Assembly: GCA_003868215.1 (NCBI GenBank)
Contig: QWDQ01000046.1
Location: forward strand, 150,563-214,562
DNA: 64,000 nucleotides
Direction of reading: 5' to 3'
DNA from: Pseudophaeomoniella oleicola
Lineage: Eukaryota > Ascomycota > Eurotiomycetes > Phaeomoniellales > Phaeomoniellaceae
Shown here: positions 13,954 to 54,051 of the stretch, one piece after another
Layout of the letters: every line of letters begins with the position of its first letter
Position numbering within the stretch: the stretch's first letter is position 1
Notes under the pieces: model-generated
Databases searched by the model: none
Seen by the model: the letters and a program-made list of their open reading frames with translations, nothing else
What the model was told of the DNA's origin: nothing
Program-made: the position numbers and the translations under genes

Positions 13954-13965
13954 TACTACGTAGTA
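13954..13965. repeat. Dispersed palindrome TACTACGTAGTA, copy 1
   Basis: A perfect 12-bp palindrome inside the longer sequence GATACTACTACGTAGTACG. It is intergenic. Confidence 0.8.
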
Positions 13966-14253
13966 CGCAGTAGATGCCGATAGGCAAATTTTGTTTGGAT
14001 ATACCGTGATGCAGTATATAAGATATCTAGGATCCCTCGGAGAAAGCACTGAATCATCTATCGTCCTATGACAGGACATCTCAAGACACTTATCTCTGAT
14101 CCTCAATGAAGGTGTCAAGTCTTTTCGTCTTTTGATCGTTTCCGTGTTTGCAGAGCTGAATGGGCACATAGAGCCTAAGCTATCTAGGCCGTACATAGTC
14201 CCAAGTCGACCACGCTACGACGCCCAGGAATACCGCTCTAGGATGCCACCAAT

Positions 14254-14499
14254 CTAAGGTACGATCAAGAGATTCCTGAAACTCATAGAACAGCCGAATC
14301 CCTCGGCCCACTTCACACGTCCCAACCCCCGATACTCGCGATAGTGAGGTTCTCCCGTTACATGGTACACTGGCGCAGCGCATATCTCAAACATGTGTCG
14401 CATGGCGTGGGGGATGGAAAGTCTCCGGGAAACGTCGGTAGCCTCCTCGTCTCTCAAGCGAAGGCGCAGGACGCCGCCGATGTCGTGTAGCTTAGCCAT
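14254..14499 (-). other. Coding-like orphan open frame of 81 codons, unidentified
   Basis: ATG at 14499, stop at 14254. The translation begins MAKLHDIGGVLRLRLRD and has mixed composition with GC-rich codons unlike its AT-richer surroundings. I recognise no family. A second frame (14383-14180) overlaps its end, so it could be a fragment of a decayed or spliced gene. It is not called as a gene. Confidence 0.25.
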
Positions 14500-14702
14500 T
14501 TCCCGGAGAAGGTATCAAGACTGATCACAAGGCGCTAAAGAAAGAAGCTATAGTGTTGTCACAGTGCCAGAACATAACAGGGTGGCTTGCATCGTGTCCA
14601 AGCTGGTGGGTAGACTAGAATGCGAGAGAAGAGTGTGGTGGCAGCCTTTATCTCATGGCACCCCCTGTAGAATGTCACCGCCTAGCAAAGACGGCGAGAT
14701 AC

Positions 14703-14714
14703 TACTACGTAGTA
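14703..14714. repeat. Dispersed palindrome TACTACGTAGTA, copy 2
   Basis: The 12-bp palindrome again. Its flanks match copy 5 at 53824 over about 23 bp (GAGATAC on the left, CGTA on the right). Confidence 0.8.
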
Positions 14715-16291
14715 CGTAGGACTCCAGGTGAATTAATCAGACGCTACTAAGCCAGTCTTGCGATCATGCCCTAGTCAGATGAATTCTCTTTCGTCGGCGA
14801 AGGATCTGATGCTGGTGGCTATGATGCTACCTCGCGAGCCGGCGCGGCCCGGGGTTACAAGTCATTTTGCATGCCATTTTTGTTGTTCTGCCTGTGTTAA
14901 ATGGTTTTATGAAGGTACTTAGAACATATCGTTGATATATCGTTGAGACCTGTTCTCTTTAGACGTTGCCGAGGTGTCTTTAGGTGGTTACCGCCCGAGG
15001 CAAGCATCTTCGTCCGTATCACCGCTCGTGGGGGCTTGAATTATGTCATTTGCACCTACGTTACCACGGTACTTAGAAACTATAGACTCTGTCTCCATAC
15101 TGCGGCTGAAGAAAGAGGTCAAACGTGCCGACGATGCATGCATCGTAGTAGATATTGGAGCTGTAATATGAAAACCTAGAGTAACGGGCTGAGAAGCTCG
15201 TCTGTCTTATCCGCTCTACGATACCTAGGTAAGTAGGCCATTGTCATGTATATGGTTCCCTGTACGTGGTGGCAGTCTCGGATATAGCGCTGGGGGAAAC
15301 CAACAGCCAACGGCTCCCACTTCTGATGACAGCCACCTTATGTCACCAGATCAATGGTTAGGACACAGAGCGATTTCACTTCTATGGCATTTGCGCCGGA
15401 CGACTTATCTCAACATCACTCGTCACCCCAGCAAGCATCCGATATCAATCAGATTTTTCCTCTTCGAGCAGCTCGCAGGTCCGTAACAAAGATCAGCGAT
15501 CTCCGATGGGAAATGAGTTGATCACCATCCATCCATCCCATCTCGCCTGGCGAGCCACTGGCAAGGATCCTACTCTGAAAACCACCCGAGCTATAACCCC
15601 ATTTGGAGACACTTGAAGCAAGCGATGTACCAGGCATTTAATATGGCATTTAGCTGAGCGAGATATGCGAGCCTTGGAATCCCGCATGTAGTTGCTAATG
15701 AAGTAATTCACCGAATAAGGGAAAAGCTCAAGGAAGAAATGTACCGTAGTAACAAGATGTAGATGGAGGCACCATCATGCACACAAAATGATGACCTATT
15801 CTCGGGGATTGAGATCATTGACCGACTTGAAAGTCTGCGGTAGGCTGAACCTCGCACCACTAGAAGGGTAGACACAACAAGCATGTGACGAGATAGCTAC
15901 TACACCCAAGTAGGTAGGTAGCTAGATAGATGGAACTTCTGGAAGTGTAAATAGAATACATTTTTGTGCTTCAGAGTGATGGCCAATCATTCTGGTCTTT
16001 CAGTTGTATGTGCCTCCAAACTGTTCTCGTTGTCCATCCTAGGCCACATGCAACAGTGCTGCAGTCCCCAGTTGGTCTACATGTGACCAGAGCCATTGTT
16101 ATCGGATCGCTAACTGTCCAACAAGAGGAAAGAAGACCCCCGTTCTCTGCAAATCTACAGCGAAGATTGCCGCCCTTCGTGAACTCCATCCACGTCCCTT
16201 TCGTAACCGAGCCGCCCGTAACTGTGCAGAAGAAGCGAGATATTTGCCCAAAAGATTACTATATCCCCCAATCTCAGACGAGATAACAACA

Positions 16292-18475
16292 TTACCTAGC
16301 TCCGTGCCAGGGACCGTAACTAGTAGAAATGTTAGCATCCTGTCTAACACATGAAGATGACCTGTTGATGCGCCGTGGGGGCTGAAGGGTAATGTTGGGA
16401 AACGAAGATTTGAAATCAGGCTTGCTCACCTCCAGATACGAGCTTTCATATCACCACTTCCAGTAGCGAACAGAGCACCAGTTGGGCACGGTGCGACAGA
16501 GATAACCGAGTTCTTATGACCTTGAAGCATCATCTGTGCATCACCGGTAATAGGGTCCCAGAATTGAACACCGCGATCCTTGGAACCGCTCATGACCCAC
16601 TCGCCGTTGGGAGTCAAACAGACACTGAGGACATAATCCTAAAAGGTAATTAGCTCCAGAGTTTACACAATTGGCGAAGCAATGATAGTACCTTATGGCC
16701 TTCAAAAGTGCGCACACATTTGCCACCTTTGGGACCGCCGTTTGGAATTAAGCCGCGGGGAGGTGTCAACTCCCACATCTTGATAGTTTTGTCAAGACTA
16801 CCGCTGACGAGATCACGGCCATTTGGTGCGAAGGCGACTGAGTATACGCTGTCTTGGTGGCCCTCGGGTCCTTCGAGGCGCTCGAGCAGATAACCACTGG
16901 TGGTGTCCCAAACGCGGACACTACGGTCCAAAGATCCAGCAGCAACGTAGCGACCGTCTGGAGACAGAGCAACAGTCGTTACGCCGTCCTCAATGCTCAA
17001 GACTAGCACCTGCTGGCCGGCGTCGATATCCCAAAGGCGGACAGTCTTGTCACCGCTTCCAGAAGCAATGTGACGGCCATTTTTGGCAAAATCAAGAGAA
17101 TAGATGTCTTGTTCATGACCAGAGAATGTGTTTCGGATCTTGCGAGATGCAATGTCCCAAACCTATGAGGCAAGTCAGTATTGATAAAGCGCGTATGCGA
17201 TTGACAGTTTCTTACCCTGATCAACTTGTCTTCAGCACCAGTGGCCAGATAACGTCCGTCGGGACTGAAGCAAACGCTCCTAATGTACAAATCGCCCTCC
17301 TTGTCGACAGTTTCGTCAATCAAGACCGCGGCACGCTCTCCGGTCTGGACATCGAAGATTTGGGCTGATCTGTTACAACCAGTGGCGATGTATTTACCAT
17401 CTTGGCTGAATCGTACGCAACATACAACGCTCTCATGGGTAAGACTCTGCATCAACTGGACATCCAGGACACGAGGAATCTCCGGATTGAACACCGCATA
17501 CCAATCACCATTTTCGCCGACGCGTTTCTTTTCTGGCGGCAATTCGTCGTGATTCAAATCTGCGAGCACATTGCCAACGCGCCAGTTTCCTTGTGGCTGG
17601 CCAGGTGCAGGAGTTGGGCGAGCGACCTGGGGTGATGCCCGCGGATCTGGGTAAGCCAGGTGTTGGGTTTGTTGTGGCGTGGCTGGACCTGGTGGTCCAC
17701 GGTTTGTGCGCGGTTTTCCTGGTCCTGGTGATCCAGTAACAGGAGGTTGTTGTGGTCCGTAACCTAAACCGACGTTAGCGAAATCGGCGCGATGCGTCTT
17801 GAAAATGGTTGCGCATACCGTTCAATGTAGGACCCTGCTGATAGCCAGGAAAAGAACCCGGCTGCTGGCCTGGCGGTGGTCCCGGAGGTTGTTGGTTGGG
17901 AGGTTGAAGAGGATGCTGTGACGGAGGAGGCTGTTCATGAGGTGGAGGAGCGAGACCTGGACCACCTTGCCCTTGATTTGCCATAATACCCCCAAAGAGG
18001 TTACTGGTCCCATGGCCTACGGTAGGTGGAGGTGGTTGTGCAGGACCCCCATGGTGAGGAGGCCCAGCCATATGTGGCGGAAGCGGTGGACCACCTCGTT
18101 GTTCGAGCTCGTGTCGCAGAAGACGGATCTCGTTTTCATATCTGACGATTCGCATTAGTAGTTGCTGCGCGCAATGCATGCAATAATACTCACTCCGTCT
18201 TCAGCTTCATGTGTGTCTGTTCCAACTGATAGATCTTCGCGCGGATCTGCTCCATCTCGTTGACTTGGCTTGCAACTGTGACTTTCATCAGCACACGAAA
18301 TACATTTCTCTGCCGGGGACGTGACGCATGGATAGATGGTTAATAACATACCCTGATGTTCATAATCCCCAGCCGCACGGCTCTGATTGTCGAATTCGGC
18401 TCGTATTTGGTCCAACAATTCATTGAGCCTGGTATTCTGCGCTTGCGGGATCATCCCGCGATGAGCGTTATACAT
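16292..18475 (-). CDS. TUP1: Tup1/RcoA-type WD40 transcriptional corepressor
   Basis: Seven exons on the minus strand: 18475-18352, 18275-18194, 18141-17819, 17763-17216, 17162-16692, 16638-16430 and 16319-16292, giving 594 aa. The N-terminal ~95 residues are the Tup_N coiled-coil tetramerisation helix ([14 protein letters not shown], then [12 protein letters not shown]). A Pro/Gln/Gly-rich linker follows to about residue 235. The C-terminal half holds seven WD40 repeats, for example [22 protein letters not shown] and [20 protein letters not shown]. The protein acts in the nucleus with Ssn6/Cyc8, bridging DNA-bound repressors to histone deacetylases. Reading through the exon-6 donor meets TGA directly after ARIWR. 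Splicing to a 28-nt last exon instead gives [13 protein letters not shown], like the Tup1 end ARIWKY, so the spliced form was chosen. Confidence 0.92.
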
Positions 18476-21095
18476 TGCGATATTGTTGTAAGAGAATCGC
18501 GATTATGATTTTCGATGGACGATAGATGCAGGAAGAAAGTTGCTTTTGGAGGATCGTTGATTGTGAGGTGCACGCAATGGTCCCAATAACAGCCGAGGCG
18601 GAACCCGATCAGACTCCAATCGGCTGCGAAAAAACTAGACCAAATCGTTGATGGGCCGCTTTTGTGATTGTCGCCCCTAGGCGACCAACTGTCAAAATTG
18701 ACCACTGTCGGACAGATCAGAAATTGGCGATGGGTTGGTAGTGCCCTTGCGACAAGTGTTGAGCAAAGAGGGATGGGGGGAGAAGAAGAAGAGGTGCTCC
18801 AGGAGTCAATCGAGAAAAAAGACAAAGCTTGGTTAAAGGTGAAGAAGACGAAGACGGTTGGTTTTGCTTGGGGAAGGGAAAGGAAGGGATTGGATTGGAT
18901 CGGTAGGGTTTATGGTAGCGATAGAATCAGTCAAACCACTAGCGCCTGCCGTCATCATCAGTCAGTTTCCTTACAGGTAATAATTAGTATCATTCGTTTT
19001 ATGTTCCGGCGAAGTTTAGTATCATGTTCATACTACGAATACGAGTAGATTTGGCTTTACTACCTTAGGTACCGTAGAGGCCACTTTTCCGGTAAGTTTA
19101 AGTACCATACTACGATGTATGCTGTTTGTATCAATACGTGCATTTGGCTATATGTATACTGCTGCTTATCGAGGGTCTGAGTGTTGTATTGCAGTACTGC
19201 AGATGAGGTAAGACTGAGAGATCCTGCACTGTAAGTGATTTGAAGGAGGGGATCCGTCGACAGTAGAGGATGGCCGTCAAATTCAAGCCTAAGATTAATT
19301 AGATGAAGGTATCCTCTCAGGTACGGGACCTCTATAACGTACAAGGCAGGTGCTCTATCTACTACCTGAGGTAGGCTCGGTAGGTAATTATTATTAGGAG
19401 GTACGGAGTATCTTAGTCACCTATGCTAGCCTAAGCCTAACTAAACAGGCGCCACTTCAGGAGAACTATGGGCCGGGGATTTAGCCCAGGTACGGTACCA
19501 TCGTGTTCCTCAGGTAAAGGTTTCAAGTAATCAACCTCCAAGAAGAGGGGGAGGATACCGAGGGTGGGTTAACTTTGGCTAAGATAGTCACAGTAAGAAG
19601 GCGGCGCGTGGACTGGCATGCCCACAGTAGCATGGCCTTGAATGCTTGGTTGCGGTCACTGAGTCATGAAAATGTACCGCTACAGTTCAAACAGTAATTA
19701 TAACTACGATGATGATTTACGGATCACTCGATGTTTACTGGGCCAATGAACGATACTCCGTCAGATCATTCTGCACACCCATATTGAACCCAAAGGTTGA
19801 TTATATAGATGGAAAAACAAGACAGTAGACAAGGGAGGTAACACAGTACGCATCCTTTTCTCGGTCCCTTGGCGAGTTGATATGGAGCGTTATGGACCAG
19901 ATCAGCACTACCACATTACAGGCAACAGTCCGATTGCTCATTGTTGTTTGAAGCAGGCAGATAGATATATGGACCATTATAAGTTGTACAAGAACCCACG
20001 GGTATGCAAAGATGACTGATCGGCAAAATGCAGGCCAATACTCCGGATATCCGCAACAGCTCTACCTGACATCAATTGCTTAGTGAGCAACACTCTGCAT
20101 ACAATGTATGCATATAAATGTCTAGGCAGGCATCATTTGATTTTGTACTGTGCCACTAATATTTCTGCCCCCGCAAGCACAAGCACAAGCACGTGAGACC
20201 GGAGGAACGCAAGGTGTTCAATGTACATAGTACTACGTAGTAAGACATACTTGTAAATCCCAGCAAATCGATTGTGAACCGGGCGCTCGGACCCATATGC
20301 GGCTTGTGGCTGAGGACTGTTAACGTTATTCGTGTAGAAACACGGCCTTGTCTCGGAACCAAATGTTGAAACGAGCAGAGATGCCAACTGAACCAGACGG
20401 CTCAATGCATGGGGTAGGTTTTGCTAAGGACGAACTGTCTATCTACAGAAAGCGGATTTCGAGCACTTGCTATGGTAGACCGGGTTGGTAGGCAGAGCAC
20501 AACAACTTAGGCCAGCTTTAAGGGTAGTTAGAACCATAAAAGAAGATAACCAGAGGTACTGTTTCATCGGCTAGTACATACTGTACGCATGCTCACGACA
20601 ATAGGCAGGAAGGTATTGTTCAGAACAGCCGGTGTATTCGGCTCCTTGCAAACACACAAGATGGTGTAACGCTTTCTGGCTCAGCCCGAGATTGTCCAAT
20701 GCGAGGACGTCCTCAGTAGTAAATGGTTTAGAACCAAATCTTTTTCAGCTTTTTCACTGTTTGATGTATATACTTCGTCGGAAAGGTGTTTAAGATATCC
20801 GCAGACAAGACATTGTACAGAGTCGTGATAATTTTTGAAAGTCGCTAAGCTCTTCCTATCGTACAATAGCCCAAGTTGGTGCAGTTGCAGCCATGACAGT
20901 CTCGCATGGTACCATACACCCTGACTAACCGCTCTTCATGATTGCTATAGCTTATGCCCTTTGTAGAATTCGTTTCAATCTGACAGAGCCCCTGTCGCAA
21001 ACGTACAAAGTCCAACCAAAAGAATCCAGAATCGAAACGCCGTACAAGCCACCGAAACGGCGCTTAACCAAGCGGGGAGACGAGTCTGTCCAGCG
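18476..21095. other. Gene-free interval upstream of TUP1
   Basis: It contains the TUP1 5' flank and roughly 2.5 kb without a recognisable gene. Short palindromic runs of GTACC/GGTAC and one TACTACGTAGTA copy are present. Short open frames, such as 18668-19048 on the plus strand, look non-coding. Confidence 0.5.
20231..20242. repeat. Dispersed palindrome TACTACGTAGTA, copy 3
   Basis: A perfect copy in intergenic DNA, preceded by ACATAG; it lacks the longer flanking identity of copies 1, 2 and 5. Confidence 0.8.
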
Positions 21096-21389
21096 TTAAC
21101 AATGTTGTAGAAAGACAGCTTTTCGTGATGCGCACCTCATGAAACTTGGCTTAGGTTCACTTCGAGTGTAGCCCAAGTAGATGATCAACGGAACGTAGCC
21201 ACTGCACCATGTCAGCGACTGGAAGACACATACAGACTTCGGATTAACTCACTAATGCACGACGACACGGGTGACATCAAGAAGCTTGCCGATGCGTTCC
21301 TGAGAGGAAGGTCAGTCTTCCATTGAACACTTGATTAACGGTCCAATTTGCAACTAGCTTACCTTAGTCTCTTCTGATAACTGGAACAT
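21096..21389 (-). CDS. TOM7: Tom7, small subunit of the mitochondrial outer-membrane translocase
   Basis: Three small exons on the minus strand, 21389-21363, 21299-21253 and 21201-21096, encode 59 aa. Each is too short to stand out as an open frame. The protein starts MFQLSEETK, continues [20 protein letters not shown] (the single membrane helix begins here), then [16 protein letters not shown]. This is the canonical Tom7 pattern: a short cytosolic head, one tail-anchor-like helix containing the GY(V/I)P kink, and the conserved GYTRSEP segment. Both introns have good signals: GTAAGC with TCTCAG, and GTGAGT with GTGCAG. Tom7 tunes assembly and stability of the TOM40 complex. The last ~14 residues are divergent. 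Length matches the family (about 55-60 aa). Confidence 0.9.
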
Positions 21390-22043
21390 TTTGTAGATAT
21401 GTATTCCTTTTGCTTGGGATCTAAGGAGGCAAATCAATTATTCAAAAGAAGCGGCAGGGATATATTTCGATTATGCCGTTCTGTGATAGCTTTTTCTTAT
21501 TGTACAATATGATGTCGCATGCAAAACTTTTTGGAGGTGATCTTAGCTCACATCTTACTGATGCCAAGCCTACTCAAATCTACAGGGGGTTCACCCCTTC
21601 TCCAGGAGAACGGTCTTTGGCTCCTAGTCAACTCAAAGAGCAAGATGAGCCAACGTTCAGCCCTGGCCCAAAACTCAGGACTTGCAGTCCATGCAAGAAC
21701 TATAGCATAACCAACACGTCGCAACTAGCTCGAGAATGTTCGATCTGCCCAGCAGCCTCTCGACGCTCTCGAAAGGTATATTCATCGGGTCTTGTTGTTG
21801 CTTGGAAGATCACAAGATCCTCTGAATAAGGGTATTTGAAGCTCAGGCTACGTCTTTCATAGATCTGAATCTAGTCCGGCTGACAGAATTCTACTTCAAA
21901 ACCGACTCAACGATGCTGACACTCCGTCTTTGTGAGGATGCGAAGTTCAGATTGCCTATCCAAGAATCTCTAAGCTATCACCAGACTTTCAATGCAAGAT
22001 GTAGCGCGAAGAGAGGTCACGGTAGAATTTACCTACATAGGAA
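21390..22043. other. TOM7 5' flank; no gene seen
   Basis: An open frame at 21473-21829 (+) has no motif or family resemblance. The N-terminal part expected for the hydrolase relic downstream was not found here. Confidence 0.4.
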
Positions 22044-22740
22044 ATGCTTATAAAGGTTCGTACAGGTTTCGGAATTTCAGAGCTACCATCCGATTTCAGC
22101 TCCGATTCTAAGAGCTATGTCAATATGGCTAAAGAGCTGAAGTTGCTGCTTGACCCCGCAAACATCAAGCCGCCATACCTCATCGTCATGCACTCGGAGG
22201 CCCTGTTTTCCTGGTCGCAATCCTGGTCGCAAATTTCTCAGTCCATTCCCTCAGGATGTTGCGGGTACGGTCTTCGTAGACATGGTGACGGAAGAAGGCT
22301 ACAGGTTACCACCCAAAGGATTACCAGAGATCATGAGGGGCCGGTGGGAATGTGTGGGCATGTCATTGTTATGGACCGAACGCAGACCCGTCGTGACGGA
22401 AGAAGAATGGAAAGACGCCCTTAACAGCGAAGGTCTAGGAAACGAACCTCCGCTAGAAGAGAGAATAGACCGACAGCGAAAGGCCAGTCGATTTGAACTA
22501 GCCAGCCTCATCTCGTCATCTGACATTTCAGCGGAGAAGAAACAATTCGACGCCACCGTCCTCCCTCGCTGTCCAATTCTCCATTGGAGTTATTCGTGGT
22601 CATGGATTCGTGCCTTGTCTCTTCAGAGCACATTATAATGACGGAACACCTTAAGGATTTGAGCGATGGCCCAGACGCCCGGATCATTTTCTGCTCCGTC
22701 TAGAAGCAACATATCATCAAGGAGACAAAAATCCTTTTCA
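22044..22740 (+). pseudogene. Decayed alpha/beta hydrolase (relic)
   Basis: Hydrolase-like sequence is spread over several frames. One frame gives GFGISELPSDFSSDSKSY and then PPYLIVMHS, the strand leading to the nucleophile. The frame then shifts: GGPVFLVA, the second half of the GHSxGG elbow, lies in another frame, and RKFLSPFPQDVAGTVFVDM in the third. The last frame stays open to about 22638. Further on, LSDGPDARIIF resembles the strand before the catalytic His but is followed by an in-frame TAG at 22701, just before KQHIIKE. A 12-bp tandem duplication, TCCTGGTCGCAA, sits at the first break. No GT-AG intron of reasonable size explains the frame changes. The N-terminal third is missing. It is unrelated in sequence detail to the intact hydrolase at 3187-4242. 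Confidence 0.7.
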
Positions 22741-23263
22741 CAGCTTCTTTGGTCCGTAATGACTATCTATACTTCACCTGGGTTCTTCTTGAAATATCAA
22801 GAGTCAAGCGTCTGTTAACACTGCATTGTGGGCAAGCTTCACTAGATGGTTACGAGTGAATATTGGCGGTGACTGAGCCAGAGCTTTCGTGAGCGAAGGT
22901 CCTGACTATAGCCAGGGACATGATGACATCGCCTCATTTTGTTACAGTAAGGTATTTAACTGAACACTTGCCATGTAAACCAAATATACGAGGGTATCTA
23001 TTTGGCACCCGAAGTCCTGTGAAAGTATTGCGGAAGCCTAGAGTATGTACGGAAGGTAAGGTAAGGTAGCTAAGGTTGATGCAGTAGGTATTACGCCAAG
23101 CATTAGAGCTCGGCTCGTAGTTCTAAGGCAAAAACCCTGGCCATGATCAGAAGCCGAAATAGATTTGCCCAGGATCACAATCTGAGGGTGGTAGGCCCAC
23201 AAGAAGAATAGCACTCACCTCCATCATCTTGCGCATACGCAGATATCTGTCTCTATAGCCAAC
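22741..23263. other. SF3b4 5' flank
   Basis: No gene seen between the hydrolase relic and the SF3b4 start. A short AAGGTAAGGTAAGGTAGC repeat lies near 23053. Confidence 0.5.
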
Positions 23264-25609: not shown

Positions 25610-25961
25610 CTTTATGGATGTGGCAGTGCCTGCGACAAGAAGAGAATCCCAAATACAAATGGACTATACTTTGGGGCAGGCCGTAATGAAGGACTAAAGG
25701 GCCAGCGGCAACCAAGACATTTCGTGGCCTCTCTACGGAAGAAACAGCGAGGTGATCGTTAAGTCACCTGCGGAGATGGTCGGGAGCTGACGTTTCGTTG
25801 CAGCCGCATCTGGGCATTCCTTGGCGATTCTGTCAGATCACGTGCCATCCCCGCACGGACCATCCAATTGTTGCGCACAGTGGATTTTGTGTGTCTGAAT
25901 GCGAGGTCACTGTCGCCAATTTTCGAGATTTACTCGTTCATACCACAACACAACGTACAAC
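25610..25961. promoter_or_regulatory. Shared upstream region of DUF2015 and eL28
   Basis: A 352-bp spacer between two divergent start codons. The ribosomal-protein side carries pyrimidine-rich patches. No specific factor site is claimed. Confidence 0.45.
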
Positions 25962-26530: not shown

Positions 26531-27775
26531 ATTAGTTCAAGTCAGATGAAGGGCGGTCCCAGGACAGCGGAAGCAAAAGCAGATTCATCTTAGACATTCT
26601 TCGGACCCAGGTATGGGATTGGAGGCTTTGGGATCAGAGCGTTCGCGCTCTCTAAGTTGGTAAAAGTCTGGAGTCATCATAGATGGCTAGTAGATACAAT
26701 GGCACATCCAAACTCGTGCTACGTACTGAAGATACCTCAAATGAAATAAAACATGCCACAGCCTGTGACAGATCCATTTATATGATACCACGAGAGTGTT
26801 GACCTGTAGTCTGTTTCGTCGATAGCTAATATCGCTGGTAGAGTGACGTCGAGAGGTATCCAACCGTGGCCAAGTTTCTTAGGCGTAGTGTGAACGGAAG
26901 TAGCCGGAAAGAGTCGCAACGTATCGTAAGAAACCGGAAGAGATCAGACTAGGAACCCGTTCCTGTTACCTTTTTGGTAGACAAGATTCCGGAGTGCATA
27001 TTGACATTGCGGAGGAGGGGAAGCTCTGATCCAGATCCACCGAAATAGTCGATATGATCTATTCTTCAATTTCAACCTCGTATGGGTTGGATGTAGGGCA
27101 GAATCGCATCCCTAGACGCCCAAAGAGACAGCACCTAACAGTTACGCCCCTCGGTCGCTGTAGGCCCCGTCCGTTCAGGGCCCGCTGCCCCTCCAAGACC
27201 AGATAGGTTAGGTAAGCAATCTGATCATCGCTTCCCAATCTCCGCTGAACTGGAAGGGGAGCATTTGGGGTTTTACGGGTAAGGTAAGATACTCCGGTCC
27301 CTAAAGGATCTACTACGTACCAGCTCGGTAGTACTACGTACTACTACGTAGTAAACCATCCAATCTCCAAACGTTAGGTAACCGTCCGAGCATCTTTTTG
27401 TCCCTCTACCCCACCATTTTTTGTGTCAGCCATTTCCCGTGCGAACCATTGGTAGGTACAACACAATACCCCCAACGTTGCTGTATCCCCAAGCCGGCAA
27501 GCATCTTTCCTGCTATACTGTACTCTCCCCTCACTTCATTATTACCGACACTATCTCTCTCTTCCTTGTTTCCTACTTCCCCCGCAACTCTTCTATCAAT
27601 CTCTCTTCGTCAAAGTTCCTTTAAAGCACCAAGGGAGTTACACTATCAGTGAAGCTTCAGCACCTGCTCTTGTCTCATAGTAAGTCTCACCCCAACCCGA
27701 GCCCAACGGTTCAAGATTGCTAGAACTGACATATCACTCACTCACTCACTTCAGTTCACACACAACATATTCAAG
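26531..27775. other. Intergenic region and MDH promoter
   Basis: No gene seen. A cluster of TACTACGTA-type palindromes lies at 27310-27353. From about 27400 to 27620 the plus strand is rich in C and T, a feature of strongly expressed fungal promoters and leaders. It ends in CTCACTCACTCACTTCAG, a possible acceptor of a 5'-UTR intron starting at GTAAGT at 27681. Confidence 0.5.
27342..27353. repeat. Dispersed palindrome TACTACGTAGTA, copy 4 (clustered)
   Basis: The perfect copy ends a cluster in which TACTACGTAC occurs at 27311-27320 and again at about 27332. This is the densest patch of the motif in the window. Confidence 0.8.
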
Positions 27776-30230: not shown

Positions 30231-30834
30231 GTTTGAGCGTCAATGTTCTTTTCTTGGTCTCTTCCAGTGGGAGGTGGTATGCTGGGAAGACAGAAAGTTC
30301 CTTGTGGCAGATCCAAGTCGCAGATGTGGTGATAGATTATATCATCTTTGGTGAGAAGCGTGTGTTTGGTTTCGGATAGCTCTGTCACGGACCTGAGGTT
30401 ATAGCATATGTTGCGATACAAGAGCGCTAAAATGGCCAATCGATCATTCCTTCGCTCAAATCTACATAGCAGTCTTAATGAGTACAAAAATGTCTTGTAG
30501 GAAGCTAGGTTGTTGTCATTGCGGTTACGGAGGAAGTCAAAGCTCTCCCCGCGGTCCCCGTATTGGTTTACGTAGTACGGGCTAACAGCAGCATCTTGTC
30601 CAGAACAACGCTGATGTTAAAGTCGCCTGAGATTTGGCGCGCATATCGTGAGGGCTGTGGAAAGCGCTCAATAGCGACGAGGGTCTTAGGTATTAGGCCT
30701 TGGGAGTGCATGATATCTCAAGTTTAGCAGCCCAGAAGTATATGCCTGAATATCGAAGGTGGCCTGAGAGCACACCACTTTTCTTCCAAGTACTCTATCT
30801 TTGGGCAACACGCAATGCAAACGTCGCCTAGACG
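30231..30834. promoter_or_regulatory. Shared upstream region of Trs33 and Dcp1
   Basis: A 604-bp spacer between divergent starts. It contains a half-copy of the dispersed palindrome, TACGTAGTACGG, near 30570. No other element recognised. Confidence 0.4.
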
Positions 30835-42381: not shown

Positions 42382-43494
42382 AGACAGACCAGTCCAAGAT
42401 GTCAACATCGCAGCCATCATTGGAATTCTCAACATATCAGCTCGCCCTCCTGGGGCAGTTCAGACCGTCGTACACTCTTCAGCTACAACAAAGCGAACTC
42501 CCTTACAACTTTCAGAGAATCACAACTATGCTGTACCTATAACTATATCATACATAATATCATACCACGTAGTAATCAATGGTAATTTAGGGTCCGTACT
42601 TAGCAAGCGAGTCATGGAAGGCTGTTTTTAGGTTCGGGATTGCCCGGACCAGTGGCAGGGGAAATCTTCCCAGAAAACTTTTGTCCATCCGCTGCAACTC
42701 CCGAAGTCTTTGTGTTCAATCCTCTATTTGATCAACGACTTTGCCCATGAAGCCTGTCATGTAAGAATTGTTTGCAGCAGATCTGCTACTGGAAGTGTAA
42801 GCGTTCATTATTGATACAGTACCAGAGAAAGGCGATACCACGGCTTTGGCTCCGTTAATGTACATTCCAACGAAATCTCTGTCTTCAACAGGCTCCACGG
42901 TACCAAATCCCCGGGACAATCAGGGCTAGCTTCGCCCGAGCATTCTTGAGGTAGCGATACGCAGGTCGCGTTAACTTACTGTATGCGGTTCGTAGGGTCA
43001 CAGTAGAATCGTGTGTTGATGTCTCTGCGCCGTTTTCTAGCGTGGAAACCCCCTCGGGGTATTCGAATTACAGGACAAGTCTCTGGCTCTCTGACCATGA
43101 GTATCCGCTAGTGCTCAGGTAGCGAGCGCCTCAATTTTCCCTTTTCGAGGAACTCCCACGTTAGCAACGATCCCAAGTTGCAGCATTATGATCTATGTCT
43201 CCATCTGACCTTTTCACTGAAAGTCTTATCAATCCCGAACATATCTAACAGTTCGTACCCGGAGCGGGTGCATATCGAGTCCAACATTCCCAACCGGCCA
43301 CTTCCTTAAAGCGATAGCGTTCGCTGACGACCTTGTATATTGATCCTCCCGACGTCTTTGAAGCCTAGACATGGGTTCTATCTTATTCAGACCATCTAGT
43401 ATTCGTTCCACCGAGCCATGAGTAACACCTTGTGCACTGCCGATCGATGAACGAGTATCTGCCCTTGAGGTGGTATTTGTTTATCAGTTTCAAC
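42382..43494. other. Gene-free interval after glutathione synthetase
   Basis: A minus-strand frame at 42716-42919 and a neighbouring coding-like stretch near 42980-43070 were examined; no single reading frame or splice path joins them. No gene called. Confidence 0.4.
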
Positions 43495-44268: not shown

Positions 44269-45280
44269 ACGAGGGACTAATCCCGGTTTCCTGAAATGTC
44301 GGTGTTCTAATTAAACTTGATCCCCCCCCCTCCTTTAATGATGACTTTTATGAACCCTCACCGATACTCTTCCTTCCTTCTCTAATTATCTATCGTAAAT
44401 AACGGGAAAAGGAAGGAAGGAAGGAAAGAAAAGCAAAAAAAAAGCTCGACGGGCGTTTGCAAACTTTGACCGATGATGACAACAACTAAAGCTGAAGCTG
44501 AAAAGAAAAGAAATTACCGGCTGGCAAACTTCCTGCTCCTGCAAGAATAAAATATCTCGCGACGAACACAAACAACTCTGGTTGGAGAATAAATAGGTCG
44601 GACGAAGCCTGGAAGCAAAGCAAGCAAGGCCTTTCGAGATAATTACATATTAGATGCATGCGAGAGAAATTCCTTCCTTTTTTATCTCAAAAGGAGGAAG
44701 TTTTGATTCAGCTACCTAATTAATACATTCGAGATAAAATATATCGATTATCGAGATGTTGTCACACTCGTCAAAAAAGGTCTCAAAAAAAAAGGTCTCG
44801 GACAGTAGTGACTAGTGGCCTACTTCGAATACTGTTTAGGATTGTCAGGCGTCTGTCTGTATACCTAGCTATTGTTTTGCTTTTCGACACTTTGTGTACT
44901 CCATGCCTTGGAACATGACCCTTTCCTGCGTGATCCAAATACGACCGCATCTATCCGCAGATAAGAGACAAGAGAAATTCAAAGACAAGAAAAGGGAACA
45001 TATCGATTCGTGACCGTAGGAATAATCCCTGGCAGGGCACATGGGTTATCATTTCCCGAGGAGTTGATTCTAAATATTGGTACTCAAGGCTTTGAAACCA
45101 GTTCATTTTTTTCGCTCTCTTTCTGAAATAATGACACGGCTAAGACAGAATCTGTGCAATCAAGTAAAAGGAATTTTGATTGATTTGAAATACTCTGACA
45201 TACGTCTCAAGAACATTGACGACAGACGAACTGTAGCAGTGAGTGAAATGAAAGGAGAGCTGATGCAGGGTGCCTGCTCG
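44269..45280. other. Gene-free interval with short simple repeats
   Basis: Contains a short C run near 44321-44330, GGAA repeats near 44408-44430 and AAAAAAAGGTCTC direct repeats near 44773-44800. No gene seen. Confidence 0.5.
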
Positions 45281-45520
45281 CTATATATCGACGGTCGATG
45301 AAGATCTGTGACCATGTCCGCGATGATGATGATGATGCTGCTGGTGTGGATCATCATAGTCATATTCGGAACCCCCTTCCGGGAACGCTGCTGACAGCTT
45401 CATGAATTGAACGTCTGAAATCACCATTGAACCGTGAACTCCCGTGCCATAACGCGTCCATTTCCCTTCCCTATTCCAATCGCAAAAGAAGAAGCTCAGA
45501 TGTCCACCAGGGTATGTGCG
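45281..45520 (-). other. Coding-like exon with His-rich end, just downstream of SHO1
   Basis: On the minus strand a strong acceptor (TTTTCTTATTTGCAG) opens a frame of 79 codons ending at 45281. It reads RTYPGGHLSFFFCDWNREG, then YGTGVHGSMVISDVQFMKL, and ends in an acidic and His-rich tail (DDPHQQHHHHHRGHGH). No upstream exon with a matching phase was found, and SHO1 ends only 59 bases upstream with its normal terminus. It could be a small separate gene, an alternative SHO1 3' exon or chance. Confidence 0.3.
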
Positions 45521-45578
45521 CTGCAAATAAGAAAAGTAAGGTCGTAAGCGAGCAATCGCTGTCACTGCAGCCTTTTCA

Positions 45579-46684
45579 TCATAACAAGATCAAATAGTTT
45601 GATGGTGCTATACCCGTCTCCCCATTTTCTTTCTTGGCCTGCCACCATCTACCACTAACGTCGGAGACTTCAAGAATTTCATGTTTAGAAAAGCTAATTT
45701 CGTTGGCGTCATCTGGATTCGCTTCATATGAATAGATCGCCTTGGCTCGGTATGGGTACTCGGTTGGTTGAGTGACTTCGGGATTCTCTTGTGCGGCTGG
45801 CGGAACATTGCCTGTGCCTGTACCCGTGGCTGTACCCGTGCCCAATCGTGGCGCTGAAGAATTGCGAGTCTCTCCAGCTGGACCGCCAGGATAACCAGTG
45901 ACTGGTGAGGAAGTTTCGAAGCCGTTCAACTGAGCTGAGGTATACATCTGTGGTGGGCGATTTGACACGGTGGTCTCTGGGCGAGGGCCAAAATTGTTTG
46001 ACATCGGCCGACTGTTGCGATACGACGTTCGTTGATCTTTGTGTAAAGCGAAAGAGTCGAGATATGCGCGATGCGCTGCTTGTGGTGTTGATCCAAAGTA
46101 GAACATCCAAACGATCTAGGCAGTTAGTCAAGAACAACCTCTTCAAGAGCAATTGACTTACAGCAATCATCGACAAAAGGATGAACCCGGCTGCCGCTGC
46201 CTCTTTGGCGCCATCGGGGCTATAAACCAAGCTGTTGACGGCAGAAGTTGTAAATACAAGACCGGCAGCCAAGTAACCCACAATCTATACTGGTTAGCAT
46301 CCGCAGTCCATGCCAAGAATACGTGTTATCCTACCGCGATGCCGTAGGTACTTGATGAATCTGAAGCGAACACAACCGTTACGCCCAATATGCAAACAAG
46401 CATGTAAACAACTCCCCACCAAGCATAGTTTGGAAATGCTGATCTGATGTCTGCCACCACGGATGAGATGAAAGCTATCAACCACGCAAGCTGGATCTTT
46501 GGTCAGCGTAATTGCGCGCAGCGCTTAGGGAGAGGTTACAAACAATTGCAATTGAGATCGTCGCCAATGCAAACGGGTCGCCAACGATGTGCCCAAGGTT
46601 GAACCGCGCCATACCTCCTCGCGTGTTGGCCGTGTTGTAGTCTTTACGCAGCGATGGAGAGTTGAGCGATCCGTAGGATGGCAT
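45579..46684 (-). CDS. SHO1: Sho1 osmosensor: four-helix membrane protein with C-terminal SH3
   Basis: Exons on the minus strand, 46684-46544, 46490-46335, 46284-46162 and 46115-45579, give 318 aa. Four membrane helices occupy about residues 35-140: [20 protein letters not shown], then [40 protein letters not shown] and [21 protein letters not shown] hydrophilic linker follows. The last ~60 residues are an SH3 domain: [20 protein letters not shown], then [20 protein letters not shown], with LILL at the end. Sho1 sits in the plasma membrane and feeds the HOG MAPK pathway by binding the Pbs2 proline motif through its SH3; it also acts in invasive growth. The start MPSYGSLNS is the first ATG of the frame; an internal [11 protein letters not shown] is an alternative. 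Confidence 0.94.
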
Positions 46685-49462
46685 GAAGGAGATATTGTCC
46701 CTTTTTCTGTGATTGCGGCGCTTAAATTCTGTCGGTCTCGGATCTTTCGTGTCGACAATCAATGATGGATGTCCCGTTCCCAGATTTCAGATTCCAGCTC
46801 GAACAGGTGTTTTCAGGATTCACAGAATGATGAATGGCGTGATTTACATGAGCCAGACGGTCGTGTGTGGTTATTGATTCGTTGAATCGTGGCAGACTCG
46901 AGTTCGCAATGTTCGAAAGTTGGGGTAGTGACAAGGCAAAACAAGAATTGAAAGAATGGCAATGGTTCAGACGATTCGGATGATGAGTTGACCGAATATG
47001 TTGGAGTAGAAGTAAAGCAAGATGAGACGAGTTGAATGAAGCAATAAAGGAAAAGGGTTGCCTATAGTTGGTAGGCTGTTGAGGTAACGAACGAAAGGCT
47101 GCAAGTGATCTTTTCTGGGATGAAGTGAACTGAATTAGAGGGTGAAGCAGGAGGATCGGGTCGATGAATGAAGGGGGGAACGAGAGGAACGAGAAGAACA
47201 AGAGACGCCGCGCAGGGGAAACTGAAATGATGCGTCGCGGGTGAGCAAAAGAGGAATAGATTCAAATACTTGAGTGTGGAGGGAGAGAAAGAGAAGAAGA
47301 GAGAGAGAGAGAGAGAGAGAGAGTCCAGGCAATTCGTTGGAAGTTTAGTTAATACCTTAGGTACCTAGGTACTTTACCGTAGTAGGAACCTCACTAATTT
47401 AGGCAACGTTAAGTTGCGTCTAGTTATACCATATTCTACTTCAGGCATCCTTAGGCGTGGCTTGTCCTTTCACAGATGAAATTAGATAGGCAGTCTCCAA
47501 CCAACCAAATTCTCCGAAGAGAAATTAGACGACCAGAGCGTGGCCTTAAACCCTGCTCTCGCTGTGAAATATTGAGTACTAATTACTCCCTGCTACCTGA
47601 GGTAGGTGCATACCTAAGGTGTCTAGATGCCTAATATCAGAGGTGCTCCTTTTCGTCTGATGGTCTGCGGTGTCGAGGAATAAGTCACCTGAAGTCGACA
47701 GACAGACAGACAGAATCGTTAATGCATAAGGCTTAGTTGGTCATTGGCCCCTTCCTGCTATTGAAGCACCGCTTAATGTGCTTGAATTGCTACTCATTAC
47801 TCATTTCCCACGAATATCTCAATCTCAGTATTCTTCCTGGTCAATGCCATTCCAACATAGGCGTAGACTATCACTAGACGAGAACGAAGAGGTGTGATCA
47901 ACTAATAAAAGAGGAGCTGAAAGTTCAACGGGACATCCTGTTCCTGAAATTCGTTTCAGACCCTGGATTCTCGGAAAAGATGTGGCTCTTGTCTCCAAAG
48001 ACCTCATCTCATCGTTCTCTTGAATAATGTACAGAGTACGGAATACTGTTGGATCCAATGCGCAAGCGATGGAAGTGGCGATAGATGCATACAGGAATCA
48101 GTGAAGCCGGGAGCGATATGTCGAGCTGTACAGAATCTTCCCCCCTATATTCGCTTACTTGTTATACATGACAATCACGTTTCCGCACCACGTTGAACCA
48201 ACCATCTTGCAATATTGCATGTGGACGACGTATGTGCTCTACTATGGTACTTCGCATGATCACCTTGTAATCGTGCTGTATTCGCAACGGTCAAGGGCTA
48301 TCATGAAGAAGGTCAACTGCCGGCTTGTGCAATCGATTTGCAAGAAAATCGACTCATAATGGTATCATATTCGAGGTCAAGGTGAATGCACCCTCCCAGC
48401 GAGATCATCTTATCAAACCGTCTTGAGGCGTCAATTGTCAACGGCACGGCACCCTCCTATCCAGGCGCCCATGCACAAGTACGCAATGGGAATGGGAGCA
48501 AGAAATGCAGATGTCCAATGATCAATAAAGTGCTCATCTTGCCCAAGTATTGGATCGACATTCTACTTCCCCAATCTGTCCTCTTGTGGCTTGTCATATC
48601 CGCTTCGTGCCGTCGTTTGACCCACGACCTTCTCCCGATCTTTGATACAGGCCTGAAACAGCTCAACCACGGTGGGTGCTAAGAATGATCATCGAGTCGG
48701 TCCAGAGTGCGATGAGCAGCCCACTTACCTAATTTTCGTTCCACTTTGTCCCTTCAAAAAGCCGATATTCTCTGCTCATTTTGGACCTTCAACGAAGTGG
48801 ATCCTGACGTTGTCGACAATGTTTTAGGACCACCGTCGCAACCCTCTCTTGTCGAAAGCAAACATGCTTGGTGATCACTGATCGAACGGTATAAGGTCAA
48901 GATGATGCCGATGACGTTCCGCACAAACCGGAAACTTGCACTCATACCAGGGTCGCTTCAAGACCATATCATGAGATGGTAAAACAACTCAAGTGTCGTT
49001 GAAAGACATCTGACGACACGAATACTCCGCAGAGTCTTTGACATAAAGGCCAAATTGACCATGATGACTTCATCAAGCCGTGAGTAACCCTACGCTCGAC
49101 ATCTGATCGCTACCATATAATGCTCTGGTCGTCGTGCGCTCCTGCGTCAACATCTCTTCAGGACTCGAATACGCCAATCACACCTATTGCTTGATTGATG
49201 GCCTCCCGAGAGATCCCATATTGCTACGAGAAGAAGCCTGCAAGTTCGCCGATATCGAGCGGACCAATGTATACGCGCATACGGCTGAGAAAAGGCAGCT
49301 TGCGCTCGTACCAAGTAACTGTATGCCGTTCATATATACGCGCTTAAATTCGGTCTTCTCCAGAACGAGATGGAGCTATATACTGAGAAGTATCCGAGAA
49401 CAAGGCAAAGAGTACAGGTTCACCTATAGCATTTCCTCCATAAGACTGGAGGCACTTGGCCG
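46685..49462. other. Long gene-free interval upstream of SHO1
   Basis: (GA)n lies at about 47299-47323; a TTAGGTACCTAGGTA cluster lies at about 47355-47375; GACA repeats lie near 47698-47713. Open frames 48386-48682 and 49134-49487 (+) have no recognisable family. Confidence 0.5.
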
Positions 49463-50823
49463 TTACACTTTTCCCAGTAGGCCTTGAGGGGTCACACCTT
49501 TAGTTGCAAACGCAATGAAACCGCCGAACAAACACATGGCGCCACTATACATGGACGCTTCGAAGAAACCGCCATATCTGTCCACAAGTGCCCCATTCAC
49601 CGGAGGACCTATTAGACCTCCGACAGCGCTTATGGCCAATCCCATACCCAAGTAGGTTCCGATGTTCTGCACGTCTTCAGTGCAGACAGACACAGCCGCG
49701 GAAGCTCCAGAGATGATTGTCCCTGAGGAAAACCCAAAGGACACCGCATAGATGATCAGTCCCGCATTGCTTGTTGCTGAATTCATGCAGAATATGACAA
49801 CGCCGGAGACTATGGCTCCTAACGCGAACATGTTCAACCGTCCGTATTTATCCGCTAGAATACCGGGGATGATACGGCCGAACGTGGAGGCTGCGTTGAG
49901 AATCGCAAGCAAATAGCCGGAAAGTATTGCGTCCATGCCTCTTGTGACGGCGTATGTTGGGAGGTAAAAGAGCGGAGTGAACATGCCATCGAACACGAAA
50001 AACAATGAGATAACCAAGAGGATGAATCTGATATTTTTGTAGGCAGCTGGCAACCAAAAGGTTGACGTTCTTGACGGTAGGCGAGCCCTGATGGCCACAC
50101 ACGCGAAAGCCATCAAGGGCAATATGAGGAACCCAATAATTCGTACCGACCAACCAAAACCGAGAGAAGAGCTGTTCAGCATTTTTGATAATGCAATAGG
50201 GATGATGATACCGCCGATGGAGGATCCAGATACGACCACACCCAAGGCAGCTGCTCGCTTCTTGTCGAAGTATTGAGACACTGCTGCGAATGCTGGGATT
50301 TGTAGGAGGCCCATGACAATACCCATCAAGATCCCTTGCACGAGCATGAATTGCCAATATTCCTTGCACAGACTCAGCATCATGATGGCGAAAACGTACA
50401 TGATTGCTGCAGGTCGGATGATCTACTGCAATGTTAGTGGAATGATGGGACTGTTACTATGGTCCGATAGCATACCCATGCGCCAAATCGATCAAACAAG
50501 GGACCTCCGAGCATGCCTGCTGCGAACTGGAGGAAAGCTGATAACGATCCAATCCAGGAGATAGCATCTGGGGATTTGTCGTGGAGTTGGTGTTTCAAAT
50601 AGTACTCTTCAAAAGTACCAAATGAATTCGCAAATCCCAGACAACAGAAGAAGATTGTAGAACCCCCAGCTGCAACGAGCCACGCTCTGGCACCGCCATC
50701 CGGTGCCTCTCCAACTTCGGAGGCATCAGCCTGGGACTTTTCCTGACCGGAAATGCTGTTGACGGTTGATTGCTGCCTTTCATCTCCACGAGAGACTCTC
50801 GGCTCCGTTACTGTAGACGCCAT
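49463..50823 (-). CDS. MFS transporter, monocarboxylate (MCT)-like
   Basis: Exons 50823-50476 and 50422-49463 on the minus strand encode 435 aa. The N-terminal cytosolic ~40 residues lead to DGGARAWLVAAGGSTIFFCC, the classic entry motif of fungal MCT-like proteins (PDGG.AW), and then FANSFGTFEEYY. About 12 helices follow, with FDRFGAW at the end of TM2 and ADKYGRLNMFALGAI in the second half. The acceptor is ambiguous: TTGCAG is followed at once by TAG, so TAG just before ATCATCCGACC is used as the 3' site to keep the frame open. The family transports carboxylates, riboflavin or other metabolites at the plasma membrane; the substrate is unknown. It is divergent from a Zn2Cys6 factor that may control it. 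Confidence 0.87.
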
Positions 50824-51286
50824 ATGGCAATACGAGGTGATTACGAAAAGGGTAGATTGAAATGATAGCTGAGGTTTGCTGGCTTCGAGGCTAGAGATGT
50901 TCTGAGATGAAGTCGACACATCTTCGGAATGAGCGTGGTTGGAACATCCAAGTCTCTTAAATACTATAGGAGGTGGTAGGTATTGCAACACTATTCTGAA
51001 CTATTCATCTATGAATTACATCTCGTTGGCCGGCGGACTCGGCGATCGGGTTCAAGAGTCGGATCCGATATTCGGGAAATTGCCGGTCCGCTCTCAGCCT
51101 CAAAGAGACTACCTCACCAAATTACCGATTTCGAACCATTAACCCCGATATTGATCTCTGTTCCTCAGATAATATAAAAGAATAACCCGTCGGACTTAGT
51201 CTATTGTAGTCCTTTGAGTCCTCGATCTCAGGGCTATGAATTGCTCTAGTGCGGACTATCCGAAGCCATAGCGAAGGTGGGTGGCC
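50824..51286. promoter_or_regulatory. Divergent promoter with clustered CGG/CCG triplets
   Basis: A 463-bp spacer between the MCT-like transporter and the Zn2Cys6 factor. Between 51031 and 51090 there are about nine CGG or CCG triplets, including the 10-bp palindrome TCGGATCCGA at 51059-51068 and GCCGGTCCG at 51082-51090. Zn2Cys6 proteins bind paired CGG triplets, so this is the inferred control region; which pair is bound cannot be told. Confidence 0.5.
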
Positions 51287-53723
51287 ATGGCCGACCCCGA
51301 ACCTCGACGGAGAAGGCCAGCTGTGTAGGTCTGGGGTTCCATTCGTTACCTTCGCGCTCTGATAACGGGATCATTACAGTTCATGCTCTCTATGCAGGAG
51401 ACGCAAAATTCGGTGCAACCGAGAAACTCCCTGCAGTAATTGTGTGCGGTCCAGGAACCAGACTTGCGTCTATGAGAATCAACATACGCAACACCCTCGA
51501 CAACATCTTGGGCAGAGCCGAATAATTGACCAAGGTTTCCCAGAGTCAGTACAAAATGACAGAGCCTTCGACACGAACAGAGGATCGGCGGTCCCAAGCC
51601 ATCCGTCAAGCTCCTCAGCAGCTGGTTCAGCAAGAGCATCGACTCTGACGAGCCAGCCGTCTCTTCGAGATGTTGAGTCCCTAAAAAGCCAGATTCGACA
51701 TCTTGAACAGCGGCTATCCGAAGCTACATCAAGCTCCGCTGGGTCTCCGGTTTCGAGTTCCAACATCGAGACAAAATCATCACGTATTGGTGGGACCTTT
51801 TATTTGCATCGTGAAAGCCGCTCGTCCGGCCAACCTCCGGCCGTCATCCGCGGTATCACGCATAAGACACGCCTGTTTGGCCAAAGCCATTGGATCAATG
51901 GCGTTACAATGGTAAGCTCTCGAGACATCTCGTCGGACCTCATTGGGGAAGTGGCCTGACCACCATCAGTTTCTCGATATGTTTGAGATGATTGAGCCGC
52001 AACTACGAGAAGAAATCTCAAAGGTTTTCTCAGGCATACAGAGATGTAAGACCTTAGGAAAGCTCATCAAATCGAGGCGGGCACCTCATTGGCCCTTGCC
52101 ACCACAGACTGATCTTCCTCCGAAAGATATTGCTGACGAGCTCGTTGATTGTTACTTCCGGACTAATGAAAACATCTATCGAATCCTGCATATTCCTAAT
52201 TTTAGAAGGGACTATGAAGCGCTCTGGGTGCCGGAAATTAAGCCCGAGACGGGCTTCCTCGCGCAACTGAAGCTAGTGCTCGCTATTGGAGCTATCACCT
52301 ATGATGAGCAATTCTCTCTACGTACCTCAGCCATTCGATGGGTATACGAAGCTCAAACTTGGCTTTCCGAGCCAAGTTTCAAGTCAAGGTTGGGCATTAA
52401 AGCTCTGCAGACCAATCTGCTGCTTCTGCTTGCTCGAGAGATAGTAGATACAGGCGGAGAACCGACATGGATTTCAGCCGGCTCACTGCTCAGAACAGGA
52501 GTGCACATGGGGCTACATAGAGACCCCGCGCACCTGCCAAAAATGACCACCTTCGCTGCTGAGATGCGCCGAAGACTATGGAATACGGTCCTAGAGGTCA
52601 ATTTACAATCGAGTCTGACTTTGGGAGTACCTCCATTGTTTTCCCTTGATGACTTTGATACGGCACCTCCCAGCAATCTCGATGACGACCAGCTCACAGC
52701 CAATGATTCTGTGCCAAAACCAGAGGGTGAATTCACGCAAGTATCCATCGCAATAGCTTTCCGTAGGACCTTTTCACTTCGTCTTGCAGCCACCAAGTTC
52801 TTGAATGACCTCGGATCCAGTGGTACCTACGAAGAGACGCTTCGACTTGATGCAGAGCTAAGGGCTTCATACAAAGCCGTATCTCAGATGATTCGAGGAC
52901 GAAACTCGAGCACCGTGCCTTCCCCCTCTCGGTTCGAAATAGGCGCGATAGATTTCCTCATGCATCGCTACCTTTCGGCCCTTCACGTCCCTTTTTTTGG
53001 GCCCGCATTACACCAAACCGCCTATGCATTTTCCAGAAGGGTAGTAATCGAGACTTCACTGAAGATCTGGAGTTTAGCTTACCCATCATCTTCAATCATG
53101 ACTGCTCCGTCCCGTAGTGGAACAATTCCAGCAGATCGAAACGATTTAGCACGTCTCGTTACCTGCGGCTCTGGAACATATCGCACCACGGCTATGCAAG
53201 CTGTCTTACTCATAGCAGTAGAACTTCGAACGCAACTACAAGAGGAAGAAAGCTTAGGCCCCGTACCTCTACGAGTAGACTTACTTTCCGTGTTAGACGA
53301 TGCGAAAGCCTGGTGCTTGCGGTGTATCGAGATTGGAGAGACCAACATCAAAGGCTACATGCTTATCAATGCAGTTGCTGCATATATTGAAGGACTGATG
53401 CAAGGCCTTGGGAGGTACGAAACGGCGCGATTGTTACTGGAGGCTGCAGAAGGTGCTAGAGAAAGATGCTTGCCGATCCTTGAAGAAATGGCAGCCCACA
53501 GCTGTCAGGACGAGAGGGCAGCAGATGATGATGATGATCAGACGGCGCTAGACACGAGGCCTGAGGAAGTCGAGGACTGGGACTATATGGTAAGTAAAAG
53601 ATCAACCCCACGGCACTTGCTAATGGCTCATGATCATGGTAGATGTCAGGTGCCTTTCTCGGTCAGGAAGATACGGACCCTATAAGTTGGATCTTTGACG
53701 ACGACGTTATGCAAGCTACATGA
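51287..53723 (+). CDS. Zn2Cys6 fungal-specific transcription factor
   Basis: Exons 51287-51324, 51380-51911, 51970-53589 and 53643-53723 encode 756 aa. The zinc cluster is at residues 15-42: C15-x2-C18-x6-C25-x5-C31-x2-C34-x7-C42 (SCSLCRRRKIRCNRETPCSN). It is completed only by splicing the first 55-nt intron (GTAGGT/TTACAG). A Leu-containing coiled segment, DVESLKSQIRHLEQRLSE, follows at about 120 and may mediate dimerisation. The middle-homology (Fungal_trans) domain lies at about 200-560, with WISAGSLLRTGVHMGLHRDP as its signature. The C-terminus is acidic (DDDDDQTALD; SWIFDDDVMQAT), a probable activation region. It is nuclear. Its head-to-head placement with an MFS transporter suggests a pathway-specific regulator of that carrier. 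Confidence 0.92.
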
Positions 53724-54051
53724 TGTAGAATTGAATCTCTGGATCTGTTCATTGGCGTGATCGTTATTACAACAATCGCAAAGAACCGATGGCATTGATA
53801 TTTATTTTATGACGTTGAGATACTACTACGTAGTACGTAATGACTAAGCGTACCTGAATCGTGTTAGTCTGCGCTGATCGCATTGGACTTTTCTGATTGG
53901 ATTGGACTTTCAGAAGCGGGTCGTGCACGATTGAAGGTCCCACACGGAATGTCATAACATCATCTGGAAAATGTTTCTCTTCTTTCTATACATCGTCGGG
54001 CGTCAATAGAGTATCTTGCAATCATCGTGGCTGCTTGCCCTGTAGATCGTC
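53724..54051. other. Spacer between the Zn2Cys6 factor and the Avt-like transporter
   Basis: Holds palindrome copy 5. No gene seen. Confidence 0.5.
53824..53835. repeat. Dispersed palindrome TACTACGTAGTA, copy 5
   Basis: The 12-bp palindrome with flanks GAGATAC and CGTA, identical to copy 2 (14703) across about 23 bp. Confidence 0.8.

Follow-up and report, generated by a model that had tools for sequence, protein, structure and literature searches.

The window analysed here, a stretch of 64,000 nucleotides of the genome of Pseudophaeomoniella oleicola (C54:150563-214562), carries one 12-bp palindrome, TACTACGTAGTA, at five places, and the question raised by this locus is what kind of element such a strictly repeated word represents. 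The preliminary description offered three readings: the end of a miniature repeat, a protein-binding site, or a hairpin-forming element. We examined the palindrome in the window, in a 264-kb sample (C1:1-200000 plus the window), and in the whole assembly of 26,126,811 bases in 112 contigs (26.1 Mb). Besides the window, sequence context was read from partly overlapping stretches of the assembly totalling about 252 kb; the contexts come mainly from one contig. Genes were predicted with a simple hexamer model trained on the sample; its calls are approximate and cover 53% of the 264 kb.

Distribution and Abundance of the Palindrome

The five exact copies of TACTACGTAGTA are present as described. 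Copy 1 (13954–13965) lies within the nested form TACTACTACGTAGTACGCAGTA (13951–13972) and copy 2 (14703–14714) within a nested form at 14700–14721, each of these forms having one difference from the exact nested 22-mer. Copy 3 (20231–20242) is flanked by divergent predicted genes. Copy 4 (27342–27353) is located 423 bp upstream of the start codon (ATG, 27776) of what we take to be a malate dehydrogenase gene, and copy 5 (53824–53835) 216 bp upstream of that (ATG, 54052) of an amino-acid transporter gene (Aa_trans). Relatives with one mismatch are found at positions 10863–10874 (TACTGCGTAGTA), 27332–27343 (TACTACGTACTA, overlapping copy 4), and 42563–42574 (TACCACGTAGTA), and the partial word TACGTAGTA at 27311–27319 (minus strand, adjoining copy 4), 30569–30577 (plus strand), and 4499–4507 (minus strand); the cluster of related units reported around copy 4 is present. 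With at most one mismatch allowed, the window has 8 sites, a number reached in 0 of 100 dinucleotide shuffles (mean 0.07). Domain matches show the genes of the window to be fungal (a Fungal_trans domain, a DUF7607 helicase, a eukaryotic glutathione synthase). The window sequence also includes 10 N, and a 12-mer of C occurs at 76 overlapping positions (both strands pooled), which correspond to long C or G runs.

The assembly contains 1223 exact copies of TACTACGTAGTA and 4 of the reversed spelling used as a control. At about 47 copies per megabase, the word exceeds chance by two to three orders of magnitude. For the whole genome, 0.3 to 7.6 copies are expected from Markov chains (orders 0 to 5) trained on the 264-kb sample, which itself has 8 exact copies. 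A count near the chance level, which the preliminary description had named as evidence against its own claim, is clearly not what is observed. At most one mismatch gives 2158 sites (control 123), so that the one-base variants number 935, about 816 of them above control, and are fewer than the exact copies.

Edges, Flanks, and Tandem Forms

We read the flanks of 46 distinct copies: the window contributed its 5, and contig C1, where 46 are listed, contributed 41. Beyond the 12 bp, they share just partial or tandem repeats of the word itself and a mild bias in the base next to it (G 37, C 24, T 19, and A 12 on 92 sides). What recurs in the flanks is TAC ahead of the word, CGTA or CGTAGTA behind it, or another copy that shares a TA with it. 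Since no flank beyond the word is common to the 46 copies, TACTACGTAGTA does not terminate a longer repeat, and the alignment of copies 1 to 5 is likewise confined to the word. The reading as a miniature repeat end is therefore not supported, as the flanks are unrelated on both sides and the 46 copies show no target-site duplication longer than a possible TA (a two-base match in 2 of 46 and a three-base match in 0 of 46). The TA is part of the palindrome, so its duplication is indistinguishable within occupied sites. A longer repeat or MITE was rejected, no shared internal sequence and no partner inverted repeat at a fixed distance being found in these copies.

The longer matches claimed within the window are real: copies 1, 2, and 5 have GATACTACTACGTAGTACG in common, and copies 2 and 5 share the 23 bp of GAGATACTACTACGTAGTACGTA. 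They correspond to the nested form TACTACTACGTAGTACGTAGTA with differences, in which TAC in front of the word and CGTAGTA behind it make up part of a second copy, and the additional GA or GAGA ahead of the match may be due to chance. Shared flanks are thus mostly absent, and what remains of them is a partial repetition of TACTACGTAGTA. The hairpin reading appears unlikely because the word is a perfect 12-bp palindrome without a loop; longer inverted arms were looked for around copies 1 and 2, and none were found. A search for structured RNA across the window gave no Rfam match at gathering scores.

The exact nested 22-mer occurs 18 times in the genome (control 0). The 10-bp tandem form was matched 30 times, at 28 places that include two triples (control 0). 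In some tandem pairs (C1:1076738 and 1076748, C26:285960 and 285970, C22:165568 and 165578, C58:80812 and 80822), both units are one identical variant, from which it follows that existing copies of TACTACGTAGTA duplicate as units, presumably between TA steps.

Sharp edges at TA and unrelated flanks are what would be expected of a tiny copied unit, CTACGTAG bounded by TA on both sides, that an enzyme inserts into TA steps or that a transposon leaves as a scar. In the latter version, a Tc1/mariner-like transposon would duplicate TA and leave four bases from each of its ends. The nested (18) and tandem (30) forms could be anticipated from re-insertion at the inner and outer TA, and a sister palindrome, TACCTAGGTA, with 1058 copies in the assembly against 35 for its reversed control (e.g., C1:66831-66861 and 139625-139634), likewise reads TA, palindrome, TA. 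The same-variant pairs, on the other hand, indicate duplication in place, and TACCTAGGTA differs in its placement relative to genes, occurring between convergent genes at 5 of 13 classed sites. In the 264 kb, no further multi-copy word emerged as a possible source element, which for a Tc1/mariner transposon would have CTAC...GTAG ends at TA. Excision scars of the Tc1/mariner type do resemble TACTACGTAGTA in having TA on both sides of a short remnant that starts with C and ends with G, but they vary and are fewer than the copies found here. The motif-bearing stretches of C6, C7, C8, and C12, compared in search of an empty site, were not homologous and yielded none. Taking enzymatic insertion and the scar version together, we regard a copied unit as an unlikely source of the word. 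Its most specific form, in which CTACGTAG and one TA would be a self-multiplying 10-bp micro-unit inserted by an enzyme at TA steps genome-wide together with TACCTAGGTA, seems to us quite improbable.

Variants and Partial Words

The one-base variants were counted at each of the six positions of the half-site, summed over both strands. Position 1 has the fewest, 113 (control 30), and the outer positions deviate in 3.3% of cases; the counts for positions 3 to 6 are 251 (control 18), 123 (control 15), 145 (control 21), and 160 (control 14), and position 2, obtained by subtraction, has 143. Conservation falls from 97% at the first base of the word to almost none outside, and with the position 2 control taken as 20, the information of the consensus is about 19.5 bits, where 13.6 would be sufficient. 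Such a surplus fits a copied unit better than a protein site, and together with the sharp edges, it speaks against the preferred reading discussed below, as protein sites usually taper.

The spectra of substitutions were counted by hand in the first 100 matches listed for each position. At position 1, the replacements are C 41, G 31, and A 28; at position 3, G 74, A 19, and T 7, the G class being partly the nested or a 7-bp-duplicated form, as at C1:564613, inside an exact nested 22-mer; and at position 5, G 57, T 24, and C 19. At position 6 (T 71, G 24, A 5), the spectrum looks like CpG decay, with mostly C to T at the central CpG in 71 of the 100 matches listed. At position 4 (G 48, C 43, A 9), it does not look like plain mutation, as it is not led by transitions, the transversion to G equalling the transition to C.

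After subtraction of the control, the ratio of one-mismatch to exact copies is 0.67. By our own calculation, constant birth with neutral decay would give about 1.09 (12/11), and the copies of TACTACGTAGTA are therefore either young or kept. An excess of exact over one-mismatch copies is also what a recent burst of insertion would leave. No clear excess is seen among more distant relatives: 28 sites in the 264 kb have at most two mismatches, compared with 1 to 28 for twelve shuffled palindromes, and 102 have at most three, compared with 60 to 144.

When the full copies are masked, parts of the word remain enriched in the non-coding sample, TACTACGTA with 14 occurrences against 0.6 expected and ACTACGTA with 20 against 2.3. 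These partial words correspond to a recognition site with a weaker half or to a lost TAC unit; strict insertion of 12 bp would leave fewer of them, and insertion of a whole unit does not predict enriched words lacking the outer TAC. TAGGTACCTA is enriched as well (8 in 264 kb, 0.2 expected), and so are the further non-coding words TAAGTTAG (15 against 1.3) and GGTAAGGTA (13 against 1.3) of the 264-kb sample.

In another possible origin, the word would be a neutral mutation product, an inverted TAC repeat form anchored at TA, grown by slippage, and tolerated only outside genes. Units do duplicate in place, another TAC starts 9 of the 92 flanking sides, and the flanks of the 46 copies are rich in TAGTA and TACGTA. 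Forms (TAC)a(GTA)b with a or b equal to 1 and 3 also occur, and ACCT repeats and GGTA-based words are common in this DNA. Set against this, the 2+2 form is strongly preferred genome-wide over the others, and among non-homopolymer trinucleotides only TAC gives it repeatedly (8 in 264 kb, the next best having 1). Long TAC repeats are not prominent, with 2 runs of the ACT class of at least 12 bp, and under a steady process the one-mismatch copies should be no fewer than the exact ones, the opposite of what is observed. We consider this neutral origin about as unlikely as a copied unit.

Placement Relative to Genes and Clustering

All five copies of the window are outside predicted coding segments, as had been claimed, and the same holds for the 8 exact copies of the 264-kb sample (p = 0.0025, with 53% genic). 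At loci L004–L015, 0 of 14 copies overlap predicted coding DNA, 4 of these 14 being little informative as they lie in loci without a predicted gene. In total, coding overlap is seen for 0 of the 22 copies examined (4 of the 22 from loci without a predicted gene). The 9-mer TACGTAGTA behaves similarly: among its 20 separated sites in the 264 kb, none is inside a predicted gene, 17 lie between tandem and 3 between divergent genes, and none between convergent genes, with six of the sites in one 4-kb region. Convergent regions make up about 16% of the intergenic length, and the deficit there is weak (p = 0.028 by site, p = 0.081 by 14 distinct regions). In tandem regions, there is no clear lean toward the start-codon side (mean fraction 0.41 compared with 0.50).

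The genes adjoining the copies show no functional theme. In the window, the neighbours include a weak C2H2 match (below the cut-off) and the amino-acid transporter; elsewhere they include a PALP enzyme, a hydantoinase, an AAA ATPase, an ankyrin protein, a cyclin, a WD40 protein, an amylase domain, and a GH7 enzyme, 8 of the 18 proteins compared there having no family match. Three exact copies occur within 460 bp (L015:1501-1960) between the amylase domain gene and the GH7 glycoside hydrolase gene.

The copies are clustered. On C1, with 46 copies, 10 of the 45 gaps between neighbours are shorter than 500 bp, where 1.5 are expected for random non-coding positions, and 2000 simulations gave at most 7. 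Matches with at most two mismatches occur at 0.2 to 0.5 per kb at distances of 100–1500 bp from a copy (12 loci). The background over 200 kb of C1, coding DNA included, is 0.08 per kb; in non-coding DNA, it is at most about 0.17 per kb, so there is a real local excess by a factor of about two to three. Within a 17-kb contig, a segment of 1.5 kb (L079, C6:9400-10900) contains three exact copies, TACTGCGTAGTA twice, and several variants. The close pairs have neither a significantly preferred spacing (6 of 18 pairs in one 3-bp window, p = 0.12) nor helical phasing (p = 0.75 to 0.97); of the 20 matches, these tests excluded the two triples.

A Putative Protein-Binding Site

Of the three readings in the preliminary description, the protein-binding site is the best supported, by the absence from predicted genes, the clustering, and the tolerated variants, and it is still short of proof. 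Lying outside coding DNA in clusters near genes, as transcription-factor sites in general do, TACTACGTAGTA may be the preferred recognition site of a putative dimeric sequence-specific DNA-binding protein, a reading that we adopt tentatively and rate slightly below an even chance. Dyad symmetry, gene avoidance, clusters, partial words, and the excess of exact copies fit such a site best, at that same guarded level. The enrichment of TACTACGTA without the remainder of the word is as expected of a site with one weaker half, and the lack of TACGTAGTA sites between convergent genes (0 of 20) is a weak point in its favor.

The fungus would make use of the site at hundreds of intergenic, probably regulatory, positions. 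The protein would bind as a dimer, with one subunit on each half (TACTAC and GTAGTA), selection would hold the exact copies in excess, and new sites would form locally when pieces of 3, 7, or 10 bp between TA steps are duplicated. Protein use and local duplication are compatible, as duplication may supply sites that the protein then uses.

Several observations run against a protein site, including the missing preferred spacing and phasing, the missing theme among neighboring genes, the decay-like position 6, and the duplication of copies as units. The lack of an excess at two mismatches argues against an ordinary transcription-factor site, and we lowered our initially even estimate a little because the sites with two and three mismatches are within the range of the shuffled palindromes.

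One guess for the binder is a bZIP-type protein with an ACGT core, because T, G, and C occur before ACGT and A hardly does. The fungal bZIP proteins Pap1 and PcRsmA bind TTACGTAA, the nearest fungal site among those compared here, which resembles our word in being a palindrome around TACGTA upstream of genes (PMC8977021). The flanking bases of CTACGTAG differ from those of TTACGTAA, and the TACTACGTAGTA word extends over 12 bp; in the 264 kb, TTACGTAA has 0 occurrences and CTACGTAG has 12.

Relation to Known Repeated Palindromes

Among known phenomena, the highly iterated palindromes of cyanobacteria come closest: HIP1 (GCGATCGC) and the alternate HIPs are exact palindromes repeated genome-wide far beyond chance (PMC4390886). 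In a eukaryotic counterpart, an enzyme of DNA modification or repair would recognize the word, create it, and maintain it. A very high count of a single exact palindrome is found here too (1223 against 4), and creation and upkeep linked to methylation have been proposed for such words (PMC4390886). TACTACGTAGTA differs from HIP1 in being 12 bp long, AT-rich, located in a fungal nuclear genome, and absent from predicted coding DNA in the sample. The one-base deviations of HIP1 are biased to the first and last base (PMC4390886), whereas those of TACTACGTAGTA are rarest at the outer bases. A counterpart of this kind appears very improbable to us.

A literature search, with most subscription journals outside its scope, found no description of TACTACGTAGTA or TACCTAGGTA by title or the start of the abstract among the papers listed. 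Pairs of TACTACGTAGTA separated by no more than 30 bp are present in prokaryote assemblies (22 stretches, L057–L078), whose titles all name Bacteroidota, Bacteroidales, Bacteroidaceae, or Bacteroides, and in a single contig (L056) of a viral collection. The Bacteroidota occurrences form arrays with a period of 21–22 or 42–44 or abutting 24-mers, and their flanks differ from those of the fungal copies. We regard the Bacteroidota and viral occurrences, without proof, as independent of the fungal ones.

A strict 12-bp palindrome at this density is unusual for a compact eukaryotic genome. As a copied unit, TACTACGTAGTA would be a mobile sequence of exceptionally small size, and if the micro-unit bounded by TA were true, hundreds of candidate regulatory sites would owe their distribution to transposition-like copying. 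If a protein binds TACTACGTAGTA, the positions of the copies would at once name the likely targets of a major regulator or chromatin-organizing protein.
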